From a virus, in the IMG/VR virus record IMGVR_UViG_3300010939_000078, positions 1-43,631 of that record: 43,631 nucleotides of DNA. One strand, 5' to 3'. The translations under genes and the position numbers were made by a program. The notes below the pieces were generated by a model. It was not told the DNA's origin. It made no database searches and saw only the letters and a program-made list of their open reading frames with translations. Every line of letters begins with the position of its first letter. The first letter of the stretch is position 1. Below, piece after piece: positions 4,382 through 19,535 of this stretch.

Positions 4382-5974
4382 TTATTCAAATGTTTTCACG
4401 CCGACTTCCGAATCAGCCCCCTCTTGCCGAGACGCCTCGGCAGTGAGGATCGCAAGGTCCGTATCCTTGATGTGGTTTGCAATCAGCCGCCGGTTGTCTG
4501 CGTCTAAGCCTTCCCACGCAGCTTGCTGGATAGAGAGCAATCCGGGTCGATTTTCACGCCGGAACGCTTCAATCGCGACGTCAAGGCCGAGCTTCCAGCG
4601 TTCGCCGTGACTCAGCTCCGAGAAGTATGTCGCCCCGCGTTTGGGATGCTGAACGATCAACCGGAACTCTTTATCGACGGTGAACGGCCCGCCCATTTCG
4701 GCGACCAACCGGGACAAGATATCCTCGGTCCCGTGGGCGGCGTCGCGTAGTCGTTCAGAGTTGCGGTTTGCGATTGTCTTTCGATCGTCGAGCACCCCCG
4801 CCTCGCGCCGCCGGACAAGAGCGTCACGGACGCGCACGCCTGTTTCAATGGCTTCGCGGGATGTCTCAACTTGAGCCGCGAGCGTCTTGGTGATTTCTGG
4901 GTCCGGCGGTTCGACATCTTCGACTGCTCTGACGTCCGTTTCCCATTTGAAGATCAATTTCTCGTACTCTTGAGCGCGGCGCAGTGTCGAATACGACAAG
5001 TCTCTACGGTGCTTGATTGTTTCCAGCAGCTCCGTAGCCTTAGATAACTTGAGCCGGATCTCATCGATATGTTGCTGTTGCGTGGACACTTCGATGGTAA
5101 TTATTTCGAGTGCCACTTCCGCAAAACTGGCGGTCGTCCCGTCGTACTCCGATTTGCTCTCCTCGATACGCATGCGTGCTGCGGAAGCCGTTTCGATGGC
5201 TTCTCTCGCAGCAGCCGACCGTTGTTTCTCAGTCGCCAACTCAGTGATTGCTTGTTCCAAATCGGCCTGCAATGCATCCGCATCGTGTGGAGCCTCAATG
5301 TCGATCCCTTCGTTCGCTTCTCCCCGCGCCCGGATATCACGTTCGAGGTTCTCGGCAACGTCTGCCTCTTTTCGGCTCGCAGCCTCGAAGTCGCGCTTGA
5401 CCGCCGCAGCCAGCGAAACGATGTTGTCCTTGTCGATCGATGCCGGTTTGACCAACTCTTGAAACTGCTCTTTCCCCCCGGCAAGGTCGTAGAACAGGGA
5501 AGGGTCGGTATTGACACCGGCGTACATTACCAATCTCTTGATCCGGCGAGCGTCCGCCGCGATAGGATCTTTCAATCCGGGGTCAACCAAATCGGCGATA
5601 TTCAGCCGGTCCTCGACAGACTCGATTTCCAATTCACCGCTCCGCCGATTCGCCCCACCGCGCCCCACCTTAATGCGGACTCCGAATCCCTGAACTGTTC
5701 CCCCTGTCGTTCCGTCCCGGTTGCCGAGTCGCGATTTGCCGGTGACCAGGCCATCGACGGCTTGCAGAGCTTGCGTCTTGCCCGCGCCGTTGGGGCCGGT
5801 CAACACTGTGATTGTGCCGGGCTTGGCCACGATTGTTAATTCCTCGATTGGTCCGATGTTTTCGATTTCGATTTCGTTCTCCATTTCGTTCTCTATGACC
5901 TCTTCCGGCGGCTTTGGATGAATGGTATTTTGCCCGTGTTTATGTGATATTCTGATTCCTTTTTCAGCTGGCAT
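4382..5974 (-). CDS. SMC/Rad50/RecF-like ATPase
   Basis: This 530-residue protein has a Walker A motif GPNGAGKT at residues 60-67, a long central coiled coil (about 160-370) and an ABC signature LSHGE at 454-458. A D-loop-like GLDADNRR starts at 489 and an ILTAEAS switch segment lies near 510. This is the split ATPase with coiled coil seen in SbcC/Rad50 and RecF-like phage proteins. The Walker B position reads GLLSIQQAAWEGLD, so the usual Asp-Glu pair is Gln-Gln (483-484). AAAGGA precedes the ATG. It probably works on DNA ends with the downstream nuclease and annealing protein. Confidence 0.78.
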   Translation of the reverse strand: MPAEKGIRISHKHGQNTIHPKPPEEVIENEMENEIEIENIGPIEELTIVAKPGTITVLTGPNGAGKTQALQAVDGLVTGKSRLGNRDGTTGGTVQGFGVRIKVGRGGANRRSGELEIESVEDRLNIADLVDPGLKDPIAADARRIKRLVMYAGVNTDPSLFYDLAGGKEQFQELVKPASIDKDNIVSLAAAVKRDFEAASRKEADVAENLERDIRARGEANEGIDIEAPHDADALQADLEQAITELATEKQRSAAAREAIETASAARMRIEESKSEYDGTTASFAEVALEIITIEVSTQQQHIDEIRLKLSKATELLETIKHRRDLSYSTLRRAQEYEKLIFKWETDVRAVEDVEPPDPEITKTLAAQVETSREAIETGVRVRDALVRRREAGVLDDRKTIANRNSERLRDAAHGTEDILSRLVAEMGGPFTVDKEFRLIVQHPKRGATYFSELSHGERWKLGLDVAIEAFRRENRPGLLSIQQAAWEGLDADNRRLIANHIKDTDLAILTAEASRQEGADSEVGVKTFE

Positions 5975-6076
5975 CGTTCAGTTCCTTTTGTTAAGAAAAC
6001 CCGCTTCGCGGTAATGTCGTGAGAACTCCGCACGGCGTAGCGAGGTAGAGAAACTGGTCATTTCTTTTATATTTTT

Positions 6077-6328
6077 TTACTTGACCCAAATGCGACCGCA
6101 GCGCTGGCATTGCATACGTCGCAAATAAGGTGCAAACGCTCTGATATGTACTGCAATGAGTGACGCATGCTTAGCGCCGCAACGGCATTTTTTGCCCGGA
6201 TGACTCACCCAGTCCGGAGCCGGACGTTCCAATTCGCGTTGCCACGCCTCTTCGCTCTCGCGTTTGATGCCGTCTCCAAGTAGAGAGTCACTTGCAAGCG
6301 GTGGACGATCTGAGGAATTTCCAATCAC
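6077..6328 (-). CDS. Zinc-ribbon protein
   Basis: This 83-residue protein has a C-terminal zinc ribbon: CRCG followed about 25 residues later by CQRCGRIW. The first half is probably disordered. The start is a GTG at 6328 with AGGAG 8 nt upstream. The C-x-C/C-x-x-C spacing suggests one structural zinc. The function is unknown; nucleic-acid binding or interaction with a host enzyme is plausible. The gap to the ATPase gene holds only a short CCGC-TTC-GCGG hairpin. Confidence 0.65.
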   Translation of the reverse strand: MIGNSSDRPPLASDSLLGDGIKRESEEAWQRELERPAPDWVSHPGKKCRCGAKHASLIAVHIRAFAPYLRRMQCQRCGRIWVK

Positions 6329-6435
6329 GTTGACGGCTCCTGATTTTTAATGCGAAGTTGTTTCAATTTTTTTGTCTCTTTCCGGCGTGCCGGTAAATCT
6401 CTTGCGGCAATTAACGTTGCTGCATTTCAAAATTG

Positions 6436-6681
6436 TCATCCCAATGCTTCCAGTTCAGATTTTAAGTCTTCTTTTTTCAGTTCCGCGAGTCGCTGTATTC
6501 TTACAATTTCTTCGAGTTCTCTGACGAGTGCCCGGATTGCCGGCAAATGGCAAGGGAGTAAGTCGACACAAAAGTTTACAGCTCCTGTGATGTTGAAAAA
6601 ACTCACGGAGTCAGAGTGCCGGTGGATAAGAGGTTGGTCGGCATCTGTAAACTTAAAAAGATACTCAGTTCGCGTGTACAT
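6436..6681 (-). CDS. Hypothetical protein
   Basis: This 81-residue protein has a strong AGGAGAAGG Shine-Dalgarno upstream of the ATG at 6681. The first half (EYLFKFTDADQ, NITGAVNFCVD) looks beta-stranded. The second half is a charged helix rich in Leu and Glu (LVRELEEIVRIQRLAELKK) that could form a coiled coil. I do not recognise a family. It starts 10 bp after the end of the next gene upstream. Confidence 0.6.
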   Translation of the reverse strand: MYTRTEYLFKFTDADQPLIHRHSDSVSFFNITGAVNFCVDLLPCHLPAIRALVRELEEIVRIQRLAELKKEDLKSELEALG

Positions 6682-6690
6682 AGCCTTCTC

Positions 6691-7026
6691 CTAATTTTTT
6701 CCAGAAAATCTCTTTCGTTTTTCACACAATGTTTCTAGATGCTCTTCGTAGTCTTTGCGGCACGCTGCTACAGCAGATTCGTGGTAAGGTTCGCCGTCGC
6801 GAATTTGTTCCATGATCCACTTGCGAACGATTTGTTCTTCATCAAGGAACTTAACTGCGACACCCCGGTTTTTGTCGTAGGACCAGTCGGTGACGAAAAT
6901 AAATTCAATGTCGCCAATCAGTATTTTGTCTTCGTCAACGTCGTAATGCAAAACGTCGTAATGCAAAAAGGTTTCGTATTCGATAGAGCGATTTTCGTCG
7001 GTGATTGTCCAATGAGCTATATTCAT
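6691..7026 (-). CDS. Hypothetical acidic protein
   Basis: This 111-residue protein begins MNIAHWTITDENRS. It contains the duplicated segment HYDVLHYDV, produced by a 15-bp tandem duplication near 6940-6968, and ends in a charged helix. Its ATG overlaps the stop of the preceding gene as ATGA (7023-7026), so translation is coupled. I do not recognise a family. Confidence 0.62.
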   Translation of the reverse strand: MNIAHWTITDENRSIEYETFLHYDVLHYDVDEDKILIGDIEFIFVTDWSYDKNRGVAVKFLDEEQIVRKWIMEQIRDGEPYHESAVAACRKDYEEHLETLCEKRKRFSGKN

Positions 7027-7352
7027 GGCGATTCATCCAGTCCAACGTGCCGCTGCTTCAACTGCTTGATCTTTACCCTTGATTCTTTGAGCACCTTGCC
7101 CGCTATAAAATGCATTTCTAAAGATTCGCGCAAGTCATCAATAGTGCCTCCCAGCCGCTCAATCTCTGCCCGCAACCCAGCCGTGTGCCGCTCGATAATC
7201 ACGGCAAACACAAAGCGGCAGTGAGCCAACACGTCTTCAGCTAAAACCAGCTTTGCTACGCCGCGGTCACTCAACCTACACATCAGAGCACTAATAATGT
7301 CGGCAGCCACTTTTGATGCTTCGCTTTCCAACATGATTTCTGGCTTGCTCAT
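7023..7352 (-). CDS. Hypothetical helical protein
   Basis: The 109-residue protein is almost entirely helical, with a central segment (IERHTAGLRAEIERLGG) that looks like a coiled coil and a basic C-terminus. ATGA overlaps join it to both neighbours, so it lies inside a tightly coupled early operon. No family recognised. Confidence 0.6.
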   Translation of the reverse strand: MSKPEIMLESEASKVAADIISALMCRLSDRGVAKLVLAEDVLAHCRFVFAVIIERHTAGLRAEIERLGGTIDDLRESLEMHFIAGKVLKESRVKIKQLKQRHVGLDESP

Positions 7353-7362
7353 TTCTGGCTTG
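7330..7362. repeat. 15-bp direct duplication at a gene junction
   Basis: The segment TTCTGGCTTGCTCAT and its copy TTCTGGCTTGCTCCT lie side by side at the junction of the two genes that overlap at 7349-7352. The duplication covers the end of the upstream gene (KPGASQK) and the start of the downstream one (MSKPEI), so it may have created one of the two boundaries. Confidence 0.85.
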
Positions 7363-7618
7363 CTCCTGGTTTCAACTCCTTTTCGGCTTTCTCAAATACT
7401 CTGCGTATTGGTCCATCCGGCAAATCTTTCCAAGGTATTTCGTGGAATAATAGTTCTGCGCAGTGTATGTGCATTGCCAGTTCTTCAGCTATTCCTGGTA
7501 CGTGGCCTGTCGTTATGATATCGCCAAATAAGAGGTAATCCATGAATGTCTTACCGCAAAGCTGGCACTCGCCAAGCCGGCAGTCTGGCCCAGGCATTCC
7601 AATAGACAGGTTGCTCAT
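7349..7618 (-). CDS. Small zinc-finger-like protein
   Basis: This 89-residue protein has GECQLCGKTF near its N-terminus and MHIHCAELL further on, giving a possible C-x-x-C plus H-x-x-C zinc site. GGAGG lies 7 nt upstream of the ATG. It is followed by the coupled helical gene (ATGA overlap). No known family; it may be a protein-binding or nucleic-acid-binding accessory factor. Confidence 0.6.
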   Translation of the reverse strand: MSNLSIGMPGPDCRLGECQLCGKTFMDYLLFGDIITTGHVPGIAEELAMHIHCAELLFHEIPWKDLPDGPIRRVFEKAEKELKPGASQK

Positions 7619-9888: not shown

Positions 9889-10293
9889 ATGAACGCTCAA
9901 CCGCAAAACGGAGATAAAAGTGATCCGGAACCCAGCGGGGGTGGGGGGGCAGTTGCCAAACGTGAAGAGCTGAAATTGGAGAGACGTGCGCTGCGCCAAC
10001 GCTGGAATGTCTCTGAGCAAGAGTTGCGGGCTGTCCTGTCGAGACAGATTGAAATTGCAATCGACCCGGATACCAAAAACCGTACAGCGACATCGGCATC
10101 TCGCGCCGTCATTGCCGCCGTTGCACAGAACCAGGCGGACGAACATAAACAGCAGCCGGACGAGGTCAATATCAATCTGACCGGTGGCGTCCGAATTGTC
10201 GAGGATGACAACTGGTATGGAAACGCCGACCGTCTTGCTGCCCTCGCCGATGGCGCATCAGATTCCGATTCTATTGGACCCGGCCCGGTTTAA
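9889..10293 (+). CDS. Candidate terminase small subunit
   Basis: This is a 134-residue protein from the ATG at 9889. It has a Gly-rich, disordered start (PSGGGGAV), then a helical region (LKLERRALRQRWNVSEQELRAVLSRQIEIAI) with the helix-turn-helix style found in small terminases, and an acidic tail. It lies directly before the large terminase gene and overlaps it by 77 bp. The identity rests on position and size; the sequence match itself is weak. Confidence 0.5.
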   Translation: MNAQPQNGDKSDPEPSGGGGAVAKREELKLERRALRQRWNVSEQELRAVLSRQIEIAIDPDTKNRTATSASRAVIAAVAQNQADEHKQQPDEVNINLTGGVRIVEDDNWYGNADRLAALADGASDSDSIGPGPV

Positions 10294-11473
10294 GGTAGTG
10301 GTGGCCGGCCGCCGGTGGGGAAAAACGGGAACGGCGCTACAGGCAGCGATTAGAGGGCACGGACCGGAGCGCGGCGACTTTCGCGGTGCGATTGACGGTG
10401 CCCTGATCTGGTGGGTCGCTCCGAGTTCCACGACGATCGAGGCATCCAACGTTTGGCATGATCTCAAGCGGATGACATCAGGTGCCTGGACCGATAAGAG
10501 CGAGATCCACAAACGGATCAATCTGCCGGGTGGCGGTTCGATTTCCGTCCGTTCTGCTGATGACCCGAATTCTTTGCGCGGTCCGGGACTGGACGGTCTG
10601 ATAATTGATGAGGCTGCGTTCTTGTCCGTGGACGCTTGGCAAAATGTCTTGCGGCCCGCGCTCTCGGACAAACAGGGGTGGTGTTTATTTATCACGACCC
10701 CGAACGGCTACAACTGGATCAGAGGTCTCTATGCCGACGCTGTGGATCGACCCGGCTGGTCGCGGTGGCAGTGTTCGTCGAGCGACAATCCACTTGTTAC
10801 GGCTGGAGAACTGGCCGATATCAAACGGACTATCGGTCCGCGCCGTTTCGCCCAAGAGCACGAAGCGAAGTTCACGGAGGTCGAGGGCGCGTTGTGGCCG
10901 TCCGAGTATTTCGAGGATCACATTTATGCGAACCCGGATGAGTGGCCGGACAGATTTCAGGCGACGGTCATCGCAATCGATCCGGCGATAGCCGTCACGT
11001 CGATGGCCGACTATTCCGCCATCGTGTTCGCTGGGTTGGCCCGCGGGAAGCTGTGGGTCGATTGCAAGCTGATTCGCTGCCCGCCCGTGGAATTAGTACA
11101 ACATGCTGTCGCGATGTCAGACAAATACATTCCGGTTCGCGTTGGAATCGAGAGCAACGCATTTCAGGCTGTGCTTCGCCCGTTGTTCGATGGATATTGC
11201 CGGGAGCACAAACACGCTCCGCTCCCGTTGTCGCTGATCAACAATCACGAAAAGAAAGAGGTTCGGATCCAGCGTCTCGATCCGTACCTCGCGAACCGCC
11301 AACTCAAGTTCCACCCGCATAATCCGGATTGCAAGATTCTGGCCGAGCAGCTTATGATGTTTCCAAGCAAAGGATACCACGACGACGGGCCGGACGCGCT
11401 CGAGATGGCGATCCGGCTGATCCGTCATATTACGACACGCACTGTTCCGCCAGAGGAGGTTTTGGTTCCATGA
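10217..11473 (+). CDS. terL: Terminase large subunit
   Basis: Visible motifs run in the order of the two-domain packaging motor. The Walker A is VVAGRRWGKTGTA, the Walker B is LIIDEA, and the coupling motif is FITTPNG. In the nuclease part there is AIDPA (first Asp), a VGIESN segment (Glu) and HDDGPDALEMAI (last Asp). This is the Terminase_6 type. I prefer the ATG at 10217; ATGs at 10205 and 10250 are alternatives and none has a strong Shine-Dalgarno. It packages DNA into proheads through the portal. Its stop overlaps the portal start as ATGA (11470-11473). Confidence 0.93.
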   Translation: METPTVLLPSPMAHQIPILLDPARFKVVVAGRRWGKTGTALQAAIRGHGPERGDFRGAIDGALIWWVAPSSTTIEASNVWHDLKRMTSGAWTDKSEIHKRINLPGGGSISVRSADDPNSLRGPGLDGLIIDEAAFLSVDAWQNVLRPALSDKQGWCLFITTPNGYNWIRGLYADAVDRPGWSRWQCSSSDNPLVTAGELADIKRTIGPRRFAQEHEAKFTEVEGALWPSEYFEDHIYANPDEWPDRFQATVIAIDPAIAVTSMADYSAIVFAGLARGKLWVDCKLIRCPPVELVQHAVAMSDKYIPVRVGIESNAFQAVLRPLFDGYCREHKHAPLPLSLINNHEKKEVRIQRLDPYLANRQLKFHPHNPDCKILAEQLMMFPSKGYHDDGPDALEMAIRLIRHITTRTVPPEEVLVP

Positions 11474-14004
11474 CAACAGAACTCATTAAAGCCAAAACCG
11501 AACTCGCCCTCGTCGAATCCCAGCTCAAGATTGAAGAGGCAAAGGCCAGGACCGCCATCATCAAACAAGCGGCCAAGCCGCTGGCAGAACATTGGGATTT
11601 CGTTCCACACGCGGTTGACAAGTTCTCTTTCCGCGACCCGCATTTCTTCGCCGATGGATTTCCGCACAGGCATACGCCCTGGTCGCTCAAGAGCGACCGT
11701 GAAGACGGCAAGTTCTTTCCGCTCTACGAGACGGAGATGGACCTTGCTCGCATTCGCGGCCAGTCCCGAAACCTTGCCGCGTTCACGTCCACGGCCATCG
11801 GGGCTGTCGAGGCGTTGAAAAACTACGTGTACGGGACCGGGTTCACCTACACGATTCAGGCGGCGGAAGGCGTGCAGGCCGATGAACTCGTCAAGCAGGC
11901 CCAGCGTGTCATTGATAAATTCATCGAGCTGAACGATTACACGGGCATCATTGACGCCGAGAGCCACCAGCGCAGCCGTGAGGACGGTGAAGTATTCATG
12001 CATCTTAGGGCGGACGGGTCGCGAGTCTTATTGGATATCATCGAGCCTGACAACGTGACCGAACCGGCAAACAAACGGGAAATCGAGGACTGGCTGGAGG
12101 TCACCGGGAAGGTTCCCGTCTCCGCGTTCGTTACGTCGTGGAAGTTTGGCATCCTCACACCCCAACGGCACACGCACGAGACACTGGGGTACCACGTTGT
12201 CTACGATTCAGCCGGCAACGATTGGGAGTGGGTGCCAGAGAGTCAGATGGTGCACATCAAACGCAACGTGCCCAGGAAAGCTAAACGCGGCGTCTCTGAT
12301 TTTGTGCCGGTGTGGGAGGACATCGAGGCTGAAGCACGGCTGCGGAAGAACACTGCTGAAGGGGCCGCGATTCAGGCCGCGATTGCGTTTATCCGCGAAC
12401 ACGTTCCCGGTACGTCGAAAACTGATATCGTTGATTTCGTCGCTGCGAATGCAACCACAAATTACGGCAAGTCCATCAAGGACGGCACGCGCACAACGCA
12501 GGTCGAGAAGTTCCAATCGGGGACCGTGAAGGATATCCCCGAAGGTATGAAATACCATGCCGGCCCGATGGGCACGCTCCGCTCGCCGATCTTCATCGAG
12601 GTTGCACAGTTCATTCTTCGCTCAATTGGTCAACGCTGGAGTTTCCCGGAGTTCATCATCTCCGGCGATGCCAGCAACGCAAACTTTGCTTCGACGCTGG
12701 TTGCCGAGTCGCCGTTCGTCAAGGCCCGCGAATGCGACCAGGCGTTCTACAAAAGAGGCGACTCGGAACTGCTGTGGAAAGTTCTTCGCTTGGCCTGGGA
12801 TAACGGCAGGTTGAAAGGCGACTGGCAACAGATTGAGCAGTCAATCGAGGTCAAGATCGACGCGCCGGAAGTTGCCAGCCGGGACAAGCAGAAACAGGCA
12901 TCGACCGATGAGATCCTGCAACGCATGGGTGTCAAGAGCCGTCGAACGATTGCCGCCGAGCATGGTTTGGATCTTGGTGAGGAGTTGCGGAACATGGAAG
13001 AGGACGGCGACCCGCAGCCGGGGGAGGGCGAATCACAACCGCTGAGCGAAGCGGCCAGGTTTCTGGGGTTATCCTTAACTGAGGCGTCTGGTTGCGGGAC
13101 CGGGACAGGCGGGTTCGGATCTGGCAACACGTGTGCCAAAGGGGGAAGCGGGCGCACGGGTCGATCACTTGAGTCAGCGACTCGCAATGACGCAGGTGAT
13201 CTTGTTTTAGCCGGTGGTTCAAAAGTTCCCGCACACATCGAAAAACTACGGATACCTCCAGCATGGTCGGATGTGGAAATCAACCCTGATGCACAAGGCG
13301 ATCTGTTAGCCAGGGGCCGTGATGCAAAGGGCAGGAGCCAGCGAATTTATTCCGATTCGTTTTCTTCAAAGCAGGCAGAAAAGAAATTCTCCCGGACGCG
13401 TGAACTGATCATCAAAAGCGATGGGATCAAAACTCAAAACGCCGCAAATTTAACGAGCAGCAATTTGGAGACAAGAAGCTCGGCCCAAGTCATGACGTTA
13501 ATCCAAGAGACCGGGATACGCCCAGGTAGCGACCGGGATACAAAAGCCGCAAAGAAAGCGTTTGGCGCGACAACGTTAGAGGGGCGGCACGTCGTCGTTG
13601 AGGGCGATTCGGTGAGTCTTCAATTCACCGGAAAAAAAGGGGTTGAACTCAACATCCCGATTAACAATCCGCAACTTGCAAATATGCTCAAGGACAATAA
13701 ACAAAAATCCGGATCGGACGGCAAACTGTTTCAAACGAACGCAAGCGAATTGCGCGAGTATTCCAAAACTCTGGACGGCGGTGGATTCAAGCCTAAGGAT
13801 TTCCGCACGGCAAAAGGAACGCAAACGGCCATCAGCCTTATCAAACAAAATCCCAACCCCGCAAAGAATATGAAAGAATACAAAAGTCGCGTCAGAAATG
13901 TCGCCGTAGCAGTTTCCAAACAGCTTGGAAATACGCCGGCAATTGCCTTACAATCTTATATCGACCCCGTCGTTTTTTCCGGTTGGAGACCCACCAGTGG
14001 CTGA
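11470..14004 (+). CDS. Portal protein fused to a type IB topoisomerase domain
   Basis: The protein has 844 residues in one frame. Residues 1 to about 520 look like a phage portal (DLARIRGQSRNLAAFTSTA; AIGAVEALKNYVYGTG; MVHIKRNVPRKAKRG; FPEFIISGDASNANFAS). A linker rich in Gly and Cys (GCGTGTGGFGSGNTCAKGG, about 540-558) follows. Residues about 590-844 match the topoisomerase IB catalytic domain: PPAWSDVEINPDAQG then GRDAKGR, IRPGS (Arg684), FGATTLEGRHVVV, FTGKKG (Lys722), LFQ, DFRTAKGT (Arg779), LGNTPA (Asn) and SYIDP (Tyr830, the expected nucleophile). A separate topoisomerase start codon is not apparent. The fusion would place the domain at or near the packaging vertex, or a protease may release it. 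The linker is duplicated in the next gene. Confidence 0.88.
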   Translation: MTTELIKAKTELALVESQLKIEEAKARTAIIKQAAKPLAEHWDFVPHAVDKFSFRDPHFFADGFPHRHTPWSLKSDREDGKFFPLYETEMDLARIRGQSRNLAAFTSTAIGAVEALKNYVYGTGFTYTIQAAEGVQADELVKQAQRVIDKFIELNDYTGIIDAESHQRSREDGEVFMHLRADGSRVLLDIIEPDNVTEPANKREIEDWLEVTGKVPVSAFVTSWKFGILTPQRHTHETLGYHVVYDSAGNDWEWVPESQMVHIKRNVPRKAKRGVSDFVPVWEDIEAEARLRKNTAEGAAIQAAIAFIREHVPGTSKTDIVDFVAANATTNYGKSIKDGTRTTQVEKFQSGTVKDIPEGMKYHAGPMGTLRSPIFIEVAQFILRSIGQRWSFPEFIISGDASNANFASTLVAESPFVKARECDQAFYKRGDSELLWKVLRLAWDNGRLKGDWQQIEQSIEVKIDAPEVASRDKQKQASTDEILQRMGVKSRRTIAAEHGLDLGEELRNMEEDGDPQPGEGESQPLSEAARFLGLSLTEASGCGTGTGGFGSGNTCAKGGSGRTGRSLESATRNDAGDLVLAGGSKVPAHIEKLRIPPAWSDVEINPDAQGDLLARGRDAKGRSQRIYSDSFSSKQAEKKFSRTRELIIKSDGIKTQNAANLTSSNLETRSSAQVMTLIQETGIRPGSDRDTKAAKKAFGATTLEGRHVVVEGDSVSLQFTGKKGVELNIPINNPQLANMLKDNKQKSGSDGKLFQTNASELREYSKTLDGGGFKPKDFRTAKGTQTAISLIKQNPNPAKNMKEYKSRVRNVAVAVSKQLGNTPAIALQSYIDPVVFSGWRPTSG
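13048..13143 (+). repeat. Linker module, copy 1
   Basis: This 96-bp segment encodes EAARFLGLSLTEASG, CGTGTGGFGSG and NTCAKG. It recurs at 14255-14350 with only a few base changes, most of them silent. It separates the portal body from the topoisomerase IB domain. Confidence 0.92.
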
Positions 14005-14983
14005 TATTCCCGGACTTGATGCTGATATTCATTTCGGATCGATCGATTCTAAGCCGGACGATTGGCGAAAAGATAAAGACCTCATCGAAGAAATTGATCC
14101 GGATGATGATGAACTGTTTGATACCCCAAAAGACGTGATCGCAATTTTAGGGTTCGATCCTCTCGAAGAGGACGATGATAAACCAGAGACGGTCGTCGAA
14201 TCAACGCCACTATTACCCGCGGATCAAGGGGCGATGGAAGGCGCGGCGACGCTGGAAGCGGCCAGGTTTCTGGGGTTATCCTTAACTGAGGCGTCTGGTT
14301 GCGGGACCGGGACAGGTGGGTTCGGATCTGGCAATACGTGCGCGAAGGGTGAAGGAACATCTAATACCCAAAAATCAACGGAGTCATTTCAACCGAAAAA
14401 AATGCTTGCGGAATTAAGTAGTGAAACACAAAAAATTCTTGAAGAAAATGAATATGAGCTAGAAGATTTTGAAACTTTTTCTGATGCCGTATTGGATGGC
14501 AATGACACAGAAATCGAATCCAATGTACCATTGATCGGCGAATCAGCAGTTGAAGAAATGGAAGAAGCAGTCTGGAATCAAGCAATTCCTCCGAAATCAG
14601 AATCCGCCTCCTATGGTCCGGGCGGAGAAACTTTCACACTTCATCGCGCAGTTAACACTAAAGAATCGAAATATTCCAATACTTTTTGGACAGACAATCC
14701 AAAAGATTCCCGCCCGTACGTGACAAAGCATTTCAAAGAAGCCAATTTGAGGGTGTTAGACGTATCAATACCTTCTGGAAAAATTGCCGACGCAAATTCA
14801 TTGCGAAGTGCTGCTCAAACCTTGGGGATTAGTGCGGAGTTTGATTTTGAACTTGCGGACAATAATGATGTCAGAGACGTTCTCAGAAGTGAAGGCATTG
14901 TGGCTATTTTCTTCCGTGATTTAGGCCCTGATAATTCTTACGAGCACGATACGATGTTACTTTTGTCGGAGCCAAAACCATGA
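13997..14983 (+). CDS. Linker-bearing protein with ADP-ribosyltransferase-like C-terminus
   Basis: This is a 328-residue protein from a GTG at 13997, which overlaps the portal stop by 8 bp and has GGAG 8 nt upstream. The N-terminus is acidic (MADIPGLDADIHFG; DPDDDELFDTPKDVIAILGFDP). Then come PADQGAMEGAATLEAA and the second copy of the GCGTGTGGFGSGNTCAKG linker. The C-terminal third differs from the upstream gene: GGETFTLHRAV, NTFWTDNPKDSRPYVTKHF and NLRVLDVSIPSG follow the usual order Arg, S-x-F/W-T and strand of ART-fold proteins. A late Glu (SEG...) could be catalytic. ART activity is inference. Base composition is more AT-rich after about 14355, suggesting recent acquisition. Confidence 0.62.
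   Translation: MADIPGLDADIHFGSIDSKPDDWRKDKDLIEEIDPDDDELFDTPKDVIAILGFDPLEEDDDKPETVVESTPLLPADQGAMEGAATLEAARFLGLSLTEASGCGTGTGGFGSGNTCAKGEGTSNTQKSTESFQPKKMLAELSSETQKILEENEYELEDFETFSDAVLDGNDTEIESNVPLIGESAVEEMEEAVWNQAIPPKSESASYGPGGETFTLHRAVNTKESKYSNTFWTDNPKDSRPYVTKHFKEANLRVLDVSIPSGKIADANSLRSAAQTLGISAEFDFELADNNDVRDVLRSEGIVAIFFRDLGPDNSYEHDTMLLLSEPKP
14255..14350 (+). repeat. Linker module, copy 2
   Basis: This is nearly the same 96 bp as at 13048-13143, offset by 1207 bp. It is preceded by module A (14216-14257, PADQGAMEGAATLE), which itself recurs at 15147-15204 with a small insertion. The two module types flank domains that differ, as expected for cassette replacement by recombination. Confidence 0.92.
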
Positions 14984-15234
14984 TAATTGCAGACCAGGAG
15001 ATATGGGATCGGGTCATAAAAATGCTCGGATTTCGCGGCAAACTATCTGTAAATCAAGCAAAAACTGTTAAGCATTTATTCGTAAAAGCTGGAGGCGGAA
15101 CGGGGGATAGAGGCGCAGATGAGCTTTCTGAATCGATCCGATTATCCCCCGCGGATCAAGGTGCGATTGCCGGGGCGATGGAAGGCGCGGCGACGCTGGA
15201 AGAGGCGCAGCAAATACTGAGAGATTATCCATGA
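14980..15234 (+). CDS. Short protein ending in the repeated PADQGAIAGAMEGA module
   Basis: This 84-residue protein has an ATG overlapping the previous stop as ATGA (14980-14983). The first 45 residues (MIIADQEIWDRVIKMLGFRG) are unique. The rest, LSPADQGAIAGAMEGAATLEEAQQILRDYP, copies the module found before the linker in the upstream gene. Portal and MuF proteins often end in such short helical tails, so this may be the displaced original C-terminus of the portal. Its function as a separate protein is unknown; an immunity or chaperone role for the neighbouring domain is speculative. Confidence 0.55.
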   Translation: MIIADQEIWDRVIKMLGFRGKLSVNQAKTVKHLFVKAGGGTGDRGADELSESIRLSPADQGAIAGAMEGAATLEEAQQILRDYP

Positions 15235-15401: not shown

Positions 15402-15436
15402 ACCCCAACCTGTTTTCCGGCTTGCACAGAATCGAA

Positions 15437-16183
15437 ATGGCCGAACTAAAAAACCGCAACGCACTTGATAAACGTTTCGCGCGCCAGTTCGCCAAACTCA
15501 CCGCGAAGCAGAAACGCGAATTGGAGCGGCTGCTGGGAGACCCTCCGGATCTCGCCAACGTTCCGGCAGCGTTCTGGATTGAAGCCCAGCGTGAGACCGA
15601 AGAAGAACTGGCCGCGTTGATGCTGCTGGTGTTCGTCGCCGCATCTAGCCAGCACGGGATGAACAGGACGAACAGCCAAACGCAGGGGCTTGTGTTCGCC
15701 ACGCAGCAGGCCAAACAGGTTTCCACCCAGTTCGTGACACACACTCGCGAACGGCTTGCAGCCGGGTCCGGCGTCGATACGGTACTCGGCCCGTCCCGGG
15801 TCGCCACCGTCGCCGAAACGGAAGTTACCGCTGCGCAAGCCGAGGGAACGACGGCCGCTGTCCGATCGGGGGACGTTCCAAGATTATCATTCGGGGCCCC
15901 GTTCTGGTTCACACAATGCGCCCCATCGGTGTGCAAAATCTGCTGGCCGTTTCATGGGCTGCCGGATCAGGTTTGGCGTGGGAAAATCTCACTGCCAGCA
16001 CACCCGCACTGCCAATGTTACCTGTCGGTGCTGCGCGTCGGGCGCTTGGCAGGCCGCATTCGGGTCAGAGATTGCCCGGCACCGGAAGGGGCAGACTTTA
16101 CACTTCGCAGGCGGCTGGTCGTTGAGTCAAACAGGATCCTGGAGTTAACCGGCGGTCCCCAGCGGGGCCGGTTTGATAATTGA
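15437..16183 (+). CDS. MuF-type minor head protein (SPP1 gp7-like)
   Basis: This 248-residue protein has an N-terminal helical half (KQKRELERLLG and following), then TVAETEVTAAQAEG. It ends in the cysteine/histidine-rich signature of the phage Mu F family: FTQCAPSVCKICWPFHG and LPAHPHCQCYLSVL. The ATG at 15437 is taken as start; a TTG at 15422 is possible. This protein sits inside the head near the portal, can be ejected with DNA, and in other phages is often fused to toxin domains. Here those domains are instead found on the neighbouring linker proteins. Confidence 0.75.
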   Translation: MAELKNRNALDKRFARQFAKLTAKQKRELERLLGDPPDLANVPAAFWIEAQRETEEELAALMLLVFVAASSQHGMNRTNSQTQGLVFATQQAKQVSTQFVTHTRERLAAGSGVDTVLGPSRVATVAETEVTAAQAEGTTAAVRSGDVPRLSFGAPFWFTQCAPSVCKICWPFHGLPDQVWRGKISLPAHPHCQCYLSVLRVGRLAGRIRVRDCPAPEGADFTLRRRLVVESNRILELTGGPQRGRFDN

Positions 16184-16530: not shown

Positions 16531-17661
16531 ATGAAACAAATCTTGCAAGAAACGACTCTTTCTGAATCACCGCTCTCCGTTGACCGTGAGGCCGGGATAA
16601 TCAAGGGTGTCAAGATCCTTGGCCGCGAATCGAAGAACGGGCGCACCTATTCGGCCCGTGCTCTCCAGGAAGCCAGTAAATTTTACGAAGACATCAAGGT
16701 CAATATCGACCATCCAGACCGCAGTAATCCGAATCAGGAGCGGTCTTTCATTTCGTTCATCGGCCAGCTTGACCGCTGTCATGTTGCGGAATCTGGCGAC
16801 GTGTACGGTGATCTCAACATCCTGAAATCGTCATCCCAATCCGAGGCGGTATTCGAGGCAGCCGAACGATTCCCAAAACAGTTCGGCCTGTCTCATAACG
16901 CCGAAGGCGAACTCGTTCAGAAAGACGGCGGCTGGGTTGTCGAATCCATCGACTGCGTTCATTCCGTTGACATCGTATCCCAACCGGCGACGAACGCCGG
17001 GCTATTTGAATCAGTGGAGCTAAAAATGAAACGAACTCTCCGCGAAGTTGTGACAACCGCAAGCCGCAAACGAAAAGGCTTCAAACGTTTTTTGGAGGAA
17101 ATGCACGAGGACGGAATGCTCGCGGATGTCGAAGGCGTGGAGGTTGAAGCTGAGATTTCCGCTGCCGATGCGGCAATCGATGCGCTTGCTCAAAAAGCGG
17201 ACGAAGCGTTCCGCGATATGAGCATGAGCCCGGAGGACACGGCGAAGGTCGTCAAAGACCTCAATAAAATTGCCATCGAGGTCGTGCAAAAACTCGAAAC
17301 CGTCGAGCAAGCCGTCGGGGAGAGCGGCAACGCGGGGGAATCGAGCTCTGGTGCTGGTGGTACGGATGAGGAAGTCAAACTTCCAGAATCGGTACAAAAG
17401 CGTTTGCGCTCAATCGACCGCATGGAAGCGAAAAACATGCTACTGGAATCGGACCGCGAAGCAAGCGGCGAACGCATCACTGCCGTTGCCGCCGTCCCGG
17501 AACGCCAGCGCCAGAAGCTGGTCGAGTCATGGCCGCGGAAAACAAGCGGCAACGGTGCAAGACGACCCGGAAAGTCACCGTCGATTCTGGAATCGGAAGG
17601 CCGCGATTGGACCCCCGCGAAGAACACACAGGAATTCGCCAGCCGCTTGCGAAAAGCGTGA
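16531..17661 (+). CDS. Prohead protease with C-terminal scaffold region
   Basis: This 376-residue protein has an N-terminal half with GVKILGRESKNGRTY, IDHPDR (candidate catalytic His) and FGLSHNAEG (a Ser-His segment), followed by VVSIDCV-like and DIVSQPATN motifs. This fits the herpesvirus-type phage protease group of the Mu I/T4 gp21 kind. The C-terminal half is acidic, helical and low in complexity, as expected for a fused scaffold that is digested during maturation. The start ATG follows the terminator-like RNA. It precedes the head-associated and capsid genes. Confidence 0.78.
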   Translation: MKQILQETTLSESPLSVDREAGIIKGVKILGRESKNGRTYSARALQEASKFYEDIKVNIDHPDRSNPNQERSFISFIGQLDRCHVAESGDVYGDLNILKSSSQSEAVFEAAERFPKQFGLSHNAEGELVQKDGGWVVESIDCVHSVDIVSQPATNAGLFESVELKMKRTLREVVTTASRKRKGFKRFLEEMHEDGMLADVEGVEVEAEISAADAAIDALAQKADEAFRDMSMSPEDTAKVVKDLNKIAIEVVQKLETVEQAVGESGNAGESSSGAGGTDEEVKLPESVQKRLRSIDRMEAKNMLLESDREASGERITAVAAVPERQRQKLVESWPRKTSGNGARRPGKSPSILESEGRDWTPAKNTQEFASRLRKA

Positions 17662-17679: not shown

Positions 17680-18786
17680 ATGACCTTATCATTGTCACTT
17701 CCTGAATCGGCTCTGGCTTTGCCGCGTCGCTTCGGTTTTGAGACACTATTCAACAGCCCTCCTAAGCACCAGTACCACCAGTATTTGTTGGCGGATCTCG
17801 GCGCGGGTATTGACCTGGCCGCGACCGTGATCTTCGCTCCGGGCCGGGCGATTGTGATCCACGATATTAGGATCACAGGCGACGGGTCACCGGCCGGTGT
17901 CGACGATGCTAACACGAGCGTGTGGACAGTGACCGATGGAACTTCAACCATCGTCGCAGAAACGTACGACACCACGACTGTGTTCCCGGCCGACAGCGTG
18001 CAGACCAGCCTCGGCACGGTTGCCAACCAGGTGATCCTTGCCGGTGGCCGCGTCGAATTGACGGTTCTGAATGGTACGGCTGCCAACTTGCCGCCTGTGG
18101 TCGTCACAATTGAATACAGCGACCTCGGAGCGTACCCTTACGAGGGCTGGCAGATCATCGCGCCGGACGACGGGACTGCTATCATTGCTGACGGCGTTCC
18201 GGGCGAACTCGATCTGCTGACCGGTGGCGGATCTGATAACGATGAAATCTACATTGCCCGCGCAGTCGAAGAATTTCTGTTTGCCGATGACAAGCCGTTA
18301 TATTGGAGCACGCGGCTACGCCTCGCGGAAGCGAACACTGATGACGCCAATATTATCTGCGGTGTGATGGATGCTGTTGCCGCTAACAGGCTCCAGGATG
18401 ATGGCGCAGGTCCGCCTTCCAGTTATAGCGGCGCCGTGTTTTTCAAGGTGGACGGCGGGACCGTCTGGCAATTTGAAACGTCGCTTGGCAGCACTCAGAT
18501 CACGACCGCCTTGGCTGCTCTGTCTCCAGACGGTGCTTCTGATTACCACACACTCTGGATTGAAGCCCGCCGGCGGGATGCGACGACTATTGAACTGATC
18601 CCGTTCATTGACGAAGCGGGCGGGCAGAAAAAGGATCAGGCCCTCGACGCCAATGGCGACAAGATCAAGCACACAATCACGCTTGGCTCGCCGACCGACA
18701 TGATGGCGTTTGCCGGCGTCAAGAACGGCGGGGCCAACGCCGAAACGCTGATCGTCCAGTACATGGCCGCTTACCAACTCCGATAA
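17680..18786 (+). CDS. Head-associated (decoration-like) protein, long paralogue
   Basis: This 368-residue protein has an N-terminal 130 residues that are Thr/Val-rich and beta-like (ATVIFAPGRAIVIHDIRI). From about residue 150 it is clearly homologous to the next gene: DNDEIYIARAVEEFLFADDKP, SSYSGAVFFKVDG, FETSLGSTQ and HTITLGSPT. The position between protease and major capsid genes suits a capsid decoration or fibre protein. A beta-sandwich or ConA-like fold is likely but not shown. Both paralogues begin SLSLTLPE/LSLSLPE, so a shared N-terminal anchoring peptide is possible. Confidence 0.62.
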   Translation: MTLSLSLPESALALPRRFGFETLFNSPPKHQYHQYLLADLGAGIDLAATVIFAPGRAIVIHDIRITGDGSPAGVDDANTSVWTVTDGTSTIVAETYDTTTVFPADSVQTSLGTVANQVILAGGRVELTVLNGTAANLPPVVVTIEYSDLGAYPYEGWQIIAPDDGTAIIADGVPGELDLLTGGGSDNDEIYIARAVEEFLFADDKPLYWSTRLRLAEANTDDANIICGVMDAVAANRLQDDGAGPPSSYSGAVFFKVDGGTVWQFETSLGSTQITTALAALSPDGASDYHTLWIEARRRDATTIELIPFIDEAGGQKKDQALDANGDKIKHTITLGSPTDMMAFAGVKNGGANAETLIVQYMAAYQLR

Positions 18787-18800
18787 ACGGAAAAAACATA

Positions 18801-19535
18801 ATGTCTTTGTCATTGACTTTGCCGGAGAGATTTCTGCTCGCGCCGCGCCAATTCGGGCATGTCGATCACTTCGAGGAATTCGTCACTGGAGACCGTTGGA
18901 CTTCGCTCGAAGCCGATGCCGGTTCGAGTGTTGCCGCTGTTGATTCCGCCGAAGGTGGACTCGATCTGATTTCTGGCGGAACCGACAACGACGAAGTGTA
19001 TGTGCATACGACACAAGAGTTGTTTTTGATCGCAGACGATAAGCCAATGTCGATGATAGCTCGGCTCGCGTTTGCCGAAGCCAATATCAACGACATCAAT
19101 GTGATCTGCGGATTTCAATCTGCCGTTGTCGCCAATTCTCTTCAAGACAATGCCGGCGGGCCGCTAGCCTCCTACAGCGGTGCCGTGTTTTTCAAACTCG
19201 ATGGAGAATTGTTCTGGCGGTTTGAAACGTCGCTTGCCGGTACTCAGACCACGACCAGGCTTGCTGCGGTCAGCCCGGATGCTGCGACCGATTTTCACAC
19301 GTTGCAGATCGACATACGCCGCCGGGATGCGACGACCGTTGAACTGATCCCCATGATCGACGAATCGGGCGGGAACAATCCACTGCAAGCACTCAACAAC
19401 AACGGCGTGAAAGTCAAGCACACCATTACGTTAGGTTCACCGACCGAGATGGCCCTAGTGTGCGGTGCCAAGTCGGGCGGAGCGAACGCGGAAACAGTCC
19501 GGCTTGCAATGATCGGCTGGGAAGGCACCCGGTAG
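18801..19535 (+). CDS. Head-associated (decoration-like) protein, short paralogue
   Basis: This 244-residue protein matches the C-terminal 210 residues of the preceding protein over its whole length (DNDEVYVHTTQELFLIADDKP, YSGAVFFKLDG, FETSLAGTQ, HTITLGSPTEM, SGGANAET). It lacks the N-terminal beta region of the paralogue. The gene begins 15 bp after the previous stop. Two copies may allow mixed occupancy of one capsid site or surface diversification. Confidence 0.62.
   Translation: MSLSLTLPERFLLAPRQFGHVDHFEEFVTGDRWTSLEADAGSSVAAVDSAEGGLDLISGGTDNDEVYVHTTQELFLIADDKPMSMIARLAFAEANINDINVICGFQSAVVANSLQDNAGGPLASYSGAVFFKLDGELFWRFETSLAGTQTTTRLAAVSPDAATDFHTLQIDIRRRDATTVELIPMIDESGGNNPLQALNNNGVKVKHTITLGSPTEMALVCGAKSGGANAETVRLAMIGWEGTR

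Follow-up and report, generated by a model that had tools for sequence, protein, structure and literature searches.

The 43,631-nucleotide IMG/VR virus record IMGVR_UViG_3300010939_000078, taken over its full length and referred to here as the window, belongs to a virus of bacteria and encodes a portal protein that continues in frame into a predicted type IB topoisomerase (TopIB). The open reading frame (ORF) for this fusion spans 844 codons without a stop, and its ATG overlaps the stop codon of the upstream large-terminase ORF. The portal body is followed by a short tag and then by the TopIB domain, and the next gene, termed gene 2, begins with a small acidic module. The features of this region, with lengths in amino acids (aa), are the following.

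10184–11473, + strand: terminase large subunit, upstream neighbour (PHROG 38, E 1.2e-34; PHROG 2, E 1e-33)
11470–14004, + strand: portal–tag–TopIB fusion protein, 844 aa (single open frame; Pfam)
11731–12705, + strand: portal body, Phage_portal_2, residues 88–412 (Pfam; PHROG 21, portal)
13048–13109, + strand: 62-base stretch with an exact copy at 14255–14316 in the next gene (62/62 identical, no further extension)
13093–13146, + strand: tag core CGTGTGGFGSGNTCAKGG, residues 542–559 (tag pattern scan of viral contigs)
13234–13323, + strand: TopIB N-terminal domain, Top1B_N_bact, residues 589–618 (Pfam)
13360–13941, + strand: TopIB catalytic core, Topoisom_I, residues 631–824 (Pfam; structure comparison)
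13957–13959, + strand: codon of the nucleophile Tyr830 (kept in 67/67 aligned rows)
14021–14173, + strand: acidic partner module (own profile, E 2.9e-20, the window sequence being the seed)

Judged by its sequence, the portal part is a lambda-family portal (PF05136). Phage_portal_2 matched residues 88–412 with 64.5 bits against a curated cut-off of 32.9, PHROGs identified residues 86–520 as portal (E 1.1e-31), and the gene order terminase, portal, head morphogenesis is the one expected of this family.

The two TopIB domains likewise scored above their curated Pfam cut-offs, with 35.7 bits against 27 for Top1B_N_bact (residues 589–618) and 79.4 bits against 23.7 for Topoisom_I (residues 631–824). 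A preliminary description of the window had placed a portal, a Gly/Cys linker and a TopIB domain in one frame and had named Arg684, Lys722, Arg779, the LGNT Asn (Asn821) and Tyr830 as the catalytic set; our analysis bears out the frame, the domains and each of these residues, which occur in the expected order. In an alignment of 67 TopIB domains, where the other rows are 44–59% identical to the window, R684, R779, N821 and Y830 are kept in 67/67 rows and K722 in 66/67, so that the catalytic tyrosine, whose loss in homologues would have spoken against the assignment, is retained throughout. The nearest solved chain by sequence is the Deinococcus radiodurans TopIB (2f4q, E 2.1e-30). The structure prediction proposed in the same description gave a TopIB fold: the AlphaFold2 model of residues 585–844 has a mean predicted local distance difference test score (pLDDT) of 94.3 and a predicted template modelling score of 0.88, and its best structural match in VIA-align is variola TopIB (Z 21.6, 251 residues, 3.0 Å). 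The model resembles variola, bacterial and human TopIB clearly more than it does tyrosine recombinases, the best of which reached Z 15.0 over 171 residues (root-mean-square deviation 3.4), and this comparison rules out a tyrosine recombinase. Sequence and model support an intact-looking type IB topoisomerase, predicted to relax DNA.

Relatives of this domain were collected by scans for which the window and five of its relatives served as seeds. The TopIB-alignment scans yielded 9 and then 94 loci, 80 of the 94 being retained; 87 loci were grouped into 70 clusters at 90% identity, with L187 and L188 (fragments) and L100 and L102 (on the same contigs as L109 and L165) excluded. When the whole window protein served as query, a protein scan of IMG/VR returned two near-identical relatives. 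A set with one genome per species held five TopIB loci, each in a metagenome-assembled genome (MAG), and 50,697 records of cultured phages held eight distant TopIBs of at most 30% identity and no protein related over the full length of the fusion.

The search for further portal–linker–TopIB chains suggested in the preliminary description was fruitful, as the portal–TopIB fusion occurs in 26 of the 70 clusters besides the window, all from uncultured viruses. Pfam was run on the N-parts of 59 clusters (the other 11 N-parts are shorter than 100 aa) and distinguished four portal families fused to TopIB: Phage_portal_3 in 21, Portal_Mu in 2, Phage_portal_2 in 2 and Phage_portal in 1, with L165 entered as the second Portal_Mu member from follow-up and not from a Pfam call. 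No portal–TopIB fusion was found in 44/70 clusters, 11 of these having no N-part or one below the length scanned. The non-portal TopIBs lie behind MuF or other domains, or stand nearly alone, and Mu F precedes TopIB in 4 of the 59 N-parts. Among 43 records lacking the fusion by our labels, Phage_portal_3 was present in 19, Mu F in 27 and either in 34 (E ≤ 0.001, anywhere in the record). The MuF–TopIB chains of L115 (3613–6000) and L132 (1771–6000) also contain intein-splicing profile matches, below the Pfam cut-off.

A quick tree of 77 TopIB domains comprised 70 head-type rows and an outgroup of seven, six of them TopIBs from plasmids and one from a phage; the outgroup separated from the head-type rows with a Shimodaira–Hasegawa-like approximate likelihood ratio support of 84. 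On this tree, whose shallow branches are weakly supported, accounting for the portal/no-portal state takes 16 changes; for Phage_portal_3, the starred branches imply no fewer than 6. The nearest TopIB to that of the window (L109, 59% identical) is carried on an HK97-type portal, which belongs to a different family, with the same kind of tag. The window's portal type is found with other C-termini behind the tag in L009 and L014, at 38–39% identity as far as the tag.

The preliminary description had seen a Gly/Cys linker between portal and topoisomerase. Such a segment is present, and beyond a linker it is a tag that is common to other cargo domains and duplicated in the next gene. The window type, GTGxGGFxxGNTCA, was found in 92 stretches by a DNA-pattern scan of viral contigs and in 106 open-frame occurrences; a single 9-kb contig (L078) has five CGTGxGGF copies across three ORFs. 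Behind the window-type tag, Pfam recognised, among 48 distinct C-parts, ADP-ribosyltransferase domains (three models, with 7, 4 and 2 matches), zeta-type domains resembling zeta kinases (2) and a 2H domain (1); before it, among 35 distinct N-parts, Pfam identified portals of three families (4, 2 and 1), a prohead protease (1) and MuF (1). The tag marks a junction that joins different catalytic domains to head proteins. By loose expressions, composed after inspection of the sequences, a tag of the window type or another type stands just before TopIB in 57 of the 68 clusters examined; in a control of 158,025 residues from other ORFs, types B and C matched 62 times, some of these matches being true tags. 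In 39 clusters the tag before TopIB is of an HPR type (e.g. L158, L175), and the [FW]xE[SAG]-like stretch preceding it has F/W in 39/39 and E in 38/39. This stretch resembles the cleavage rule of T4-type prohead proteases. By analogy it is possibly a head-protease site, which we regard as a lead; the window's tag type has no fixed equivalent.

The acidic module, which the preliminary description did not mention, comprises approximately 48 residues with the consensus PDVHFG...DWR...DDDEEL..TPxDVVAxLGFDP and a median net charge of −12. With a profile seeded from the window and trained on the same loci that were later counted, we located it on the same strand within 900 nucleotides (nt) downstream of TopIB in 63 of the 70 clusters. 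Of the remaining seven clusters, three have the module at 957–1396 nt and one has it on the opposite strand at a distance of 14 nt; in two the contig breaks off shortly behind TopIB, and L104 is without the module. Among the 62 cases that could be measured, 46 have a module start overlapping the TopIB stop. The reverse search is a more independent test. The DNA pattern alone returned 59 stretches, 59/59 of them confirmed by the profile, and TopIB lay no more than 1.7 kb upstream in 53; three were too near an end, and three (L207, L248 and L213) had no TopIB in that range, although L213 shares its contig with the L130 TopIB. The profile had no matches in the 92 tag loci (0.70 Mb) found independently of TopIB, the module had no convincing family match in Pfam or PHROG, and cultured phages gave no match to it. 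As in toxin–immunity systems, a small gene is coupled directly downstream of a variable domain (63/70 by distance, 46/62 by overlap and 53/59 in reverse). In its acidity, translational coupling and near-exclusive linkage the module resembles toxin–immunity or enzyme–inhibitor pairs, and it is most likely a dedicated TopIB partner, predicted to be an inhibitor or antidote. The L132 ORF from 6735 has a Cys-type tag and pentapeptide repeats behind the acidic module; by eye, these repeats recall gyrase-protecting proteins.

TopIB is an interchangeable cargo at the tag and is accompanied by a linked acidic module. We propose, and consider reasonably probable, that the fusion ORF encodes a portal bearing TopIB as interchangeable head cargo which is ejected with the DNA, the module being its inhibitor. 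Portal C-termini face the capsid interior, and up to twelve TopIB copies could be enclosed with the genome by this route. In the producing cell the module, made by coupled translation, would bind TopIB and keep it inactive until packaged, acting as an antidote or DNA-mimic inhibitor (a loading chaperone or docking adaptor being the alternatives). The TopIB domain would be released or ejected together with the DNA and would relax DNA in the newly infected cell during early expression, its substrate being the incoming phage genome, the host chromosome or both. More tentatively, we raise the possibility of a virion-delivered DNA-topology effector in the full sense: a TopIB cargo that passes between portal and head proteins of unrelated families, in almost every case with its own acidic DNA-mimic-like inhibitor from a previously undescribed family, which would spare the producing cell and relax the DNA of the next host or of the phage at entry.

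Several points weigh against cargo ejected with the DNA. A portal-fused domain would remain anchored to the ring unless cut. In L207 (oriented 5526–7613) and L248 (oriented 531–2618) a single frame runs from portal and tag through a TopIB stub directly into the module, a layout suggestive of an in-frame deletion of the TopIB core; because most of TopIB is gone and both portal and module are kept, TopIB is dispensable there. In the predicted fold of L179, where module and TopIB form one chain, the module is of low confidence except near residues 311–320 (block mean pLDDT 76; alignment of three cis-fusion rows). Finally, relatives of the clade are metagenomic or MAG contigs throughout, and cultured phages hold distant TopIBs only.

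How the module is carried bears on whether it would instead be a docking or loading partner, one that attaches to TopIB and loads the next tagged cargo into the head without inhibiting the enzyme. It forms the N-terminus of a longer tagged protein in 13/67 loci, the window included, and is fused in frame behind TopIB in three clusters (L154, L171 and L179); both arrangements would fit a docking role too. Mostly, however, the module is a separate small gene (35/67 loci, and also in L114 and L121 although these were script-labelled "cis"), and we consider a docking function without inhibition rather unlikely.

The preliminary description had offered two roles, a vertex-bound enzyme relieving supercoiling during packaging and an enzyme delivered with the DNA. 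For the former, a portal-sited TopIB would act as a swivel relaxing torsion from the packaging motor, as the portal fusion in the window and 26/70 clusters and the established orientation of portal C-termini towards the head interior would allow. Yet 44/70 clusters are without a detected portal fusion (with the reservation on the 11 N-parts given above), MuF and other carriers occur, and portal and non-portal states interchange (16 changes on the tree). Moreover, ADP-ribosyltransferase, zeta and 2H domains, for which no packaging role is evident, are likewise found behind the tag and on portals, and L207 and L248 keep the portal but lose TopIB. As TopIB is one interchangeable head cargo among several, we infer that ejection with the DNA is favoured over a portal-bound packaging swivel; delivery with the DNA is the part of the earlier proposal that gains support, and the swivel is improbable. 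Still less plausible is a domain devoid of catalysis that serves as a structural or DNA-binding appendage: DNA binding by itself could be useful in the head, but the catalytic residues are kept in 67/67 rows (K722 in 66/67) at 44–59% identity to the window. Misassembly or a frameshift joining the portal and TopIB genes can practically be dismissed, even with metagenomic records only, since the 844 codons are free of stops and portal–TopIB frames recur in 26 other clusters and four portal families.

Among known systems, poxvirus TopIB offers the nearest fold to the window domain by Z (variola, 21.6). Poxvirus virions package TopIB, which aids early transcription, and poxviruses are thought to deliver supercoiling control together with the genome. 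Their enzyme is stand-alone, belongs to an animal virus and is not known to have a portal, tag or acidic partner. Bacterial TopIBs (D. radiodurans, 2f4q and 3m4a) have the same domains and catalytic residues as the window, and plasmid-borne ones are approximately 30–35% identical to it. TopIBs are also encoded by jumbo phages (Motura, Lu11, PaBG and others), as sporadic DNA-topology enzymes and not as head fusions in the accessible part of the report (PMC7824862); the Lu11 enzyme is approximately 29% identical to the window over part of the domain.

Closest in kind are the polyvalent proteins and the MuF and portal effector fusions, in which enzyme domains sit on head proteins or among virion genes and for which packaging and injection are predicted (Iyer et al, 2017, PMC5512222; 2022, PMC9503650). 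As in the window, an enzyme and a head protein form one chain encoded among virion genes, and the accessible passages of these papers already describe PBECR, 2H, Nudix and ADP-ribosyltransferase domains fused to portals. A term look-up there found topoisomerase only in a reference title (PMC5512222) and not in PMC9503650, and "linker" in neither; TopIB lies outside this published repertoire, which is an open one and provides no strict defining feature. Those passages mention neither TopIB as cargo nor its repeated occurrence on four portal families, nor the acidic partner. MuF polymorphic toxins of temperate phages similarly join a variable C-terminal enzyme to a head-protein part that stays constant (Jamet et al, 2017, PMC5576092), whereas the window carrier is a portal in which Pfam found no MuF domain; "topoisomerase" and "motif" have 0 occurrences in the accessible text of that paper. 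We found no paper on a TopIB head fusion when TopIB was searched together with portal, virion or capsid, most subscription journals being outside the coverage. Because portal and MuF fusions to other enzymes are published and no TopIB head fusion was found, we regard TopIB as head cargo, with its small acidic partner, as a new cargo with a new partner within a known kind.

In the published passages available, most head-packaged phage effectors are ADP-ribosyltransferases, nucleases, peptidases or nucleotide enzymes. If a topoisomerase indeed belongs to their number, this would mean that phages deliver supercoiling control along with the genome. For a natural inhibitor of TopIB the acidic partner is a ready candidate, and the tag offers a handle to find more head cargoes.

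Downstream of the fusion ORF we identified the following features.

13997–14983, + strand: gene 2, acidic module, tag, then unclassified C-terminal domain (reading of ORFs; no Pfam or PHROG match)
14228–14262, + strand: stretch in common with 15172–15206 (34/35, sequence comparison)
14255–14316, + strand: second copy of the tag DNA, within gene 2 (sequence comparison, 62/62 bases)
14980–15234, + strand: 84-aa ORF holding the other copy of the 35-base stretch (ORF list, sequence comparison)
15422–16183, + strand: head morphogenesis (MuF-like) protein (PHROG 4728, E 8.2e-6)

The GTG start of gene 2 overlaps the TopIB stop by 8 nt. Because its tag copy is identical over 62/62 bases and the stretch preceding this copy matches the end of the next, 84-aa ORF in 34/35 bases, gene 2 looks like a recent mosaic. 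Its C-terminal domain has no relative among 8,171 local ORFs except the window's own copies, and three pattern matches in viral contigs were not confirmed. Since the Pfam, PHROG, ORF and contig searches gave no relative, the label ADP-ribosyltransferase-like for this domain is a reading of the letters by eye. Further downstream, the ORF before the likely capsid region (16531–17661) has PHROG 29592 (unknown function) as the best match of its N-terminus and by eye appears T4-type head protease-like. The neighbouring ORFs at 17680–18786 and 18801–19535 have C-terminal halves that are similar by eye, suggesting tandem paralogues among the head genes.

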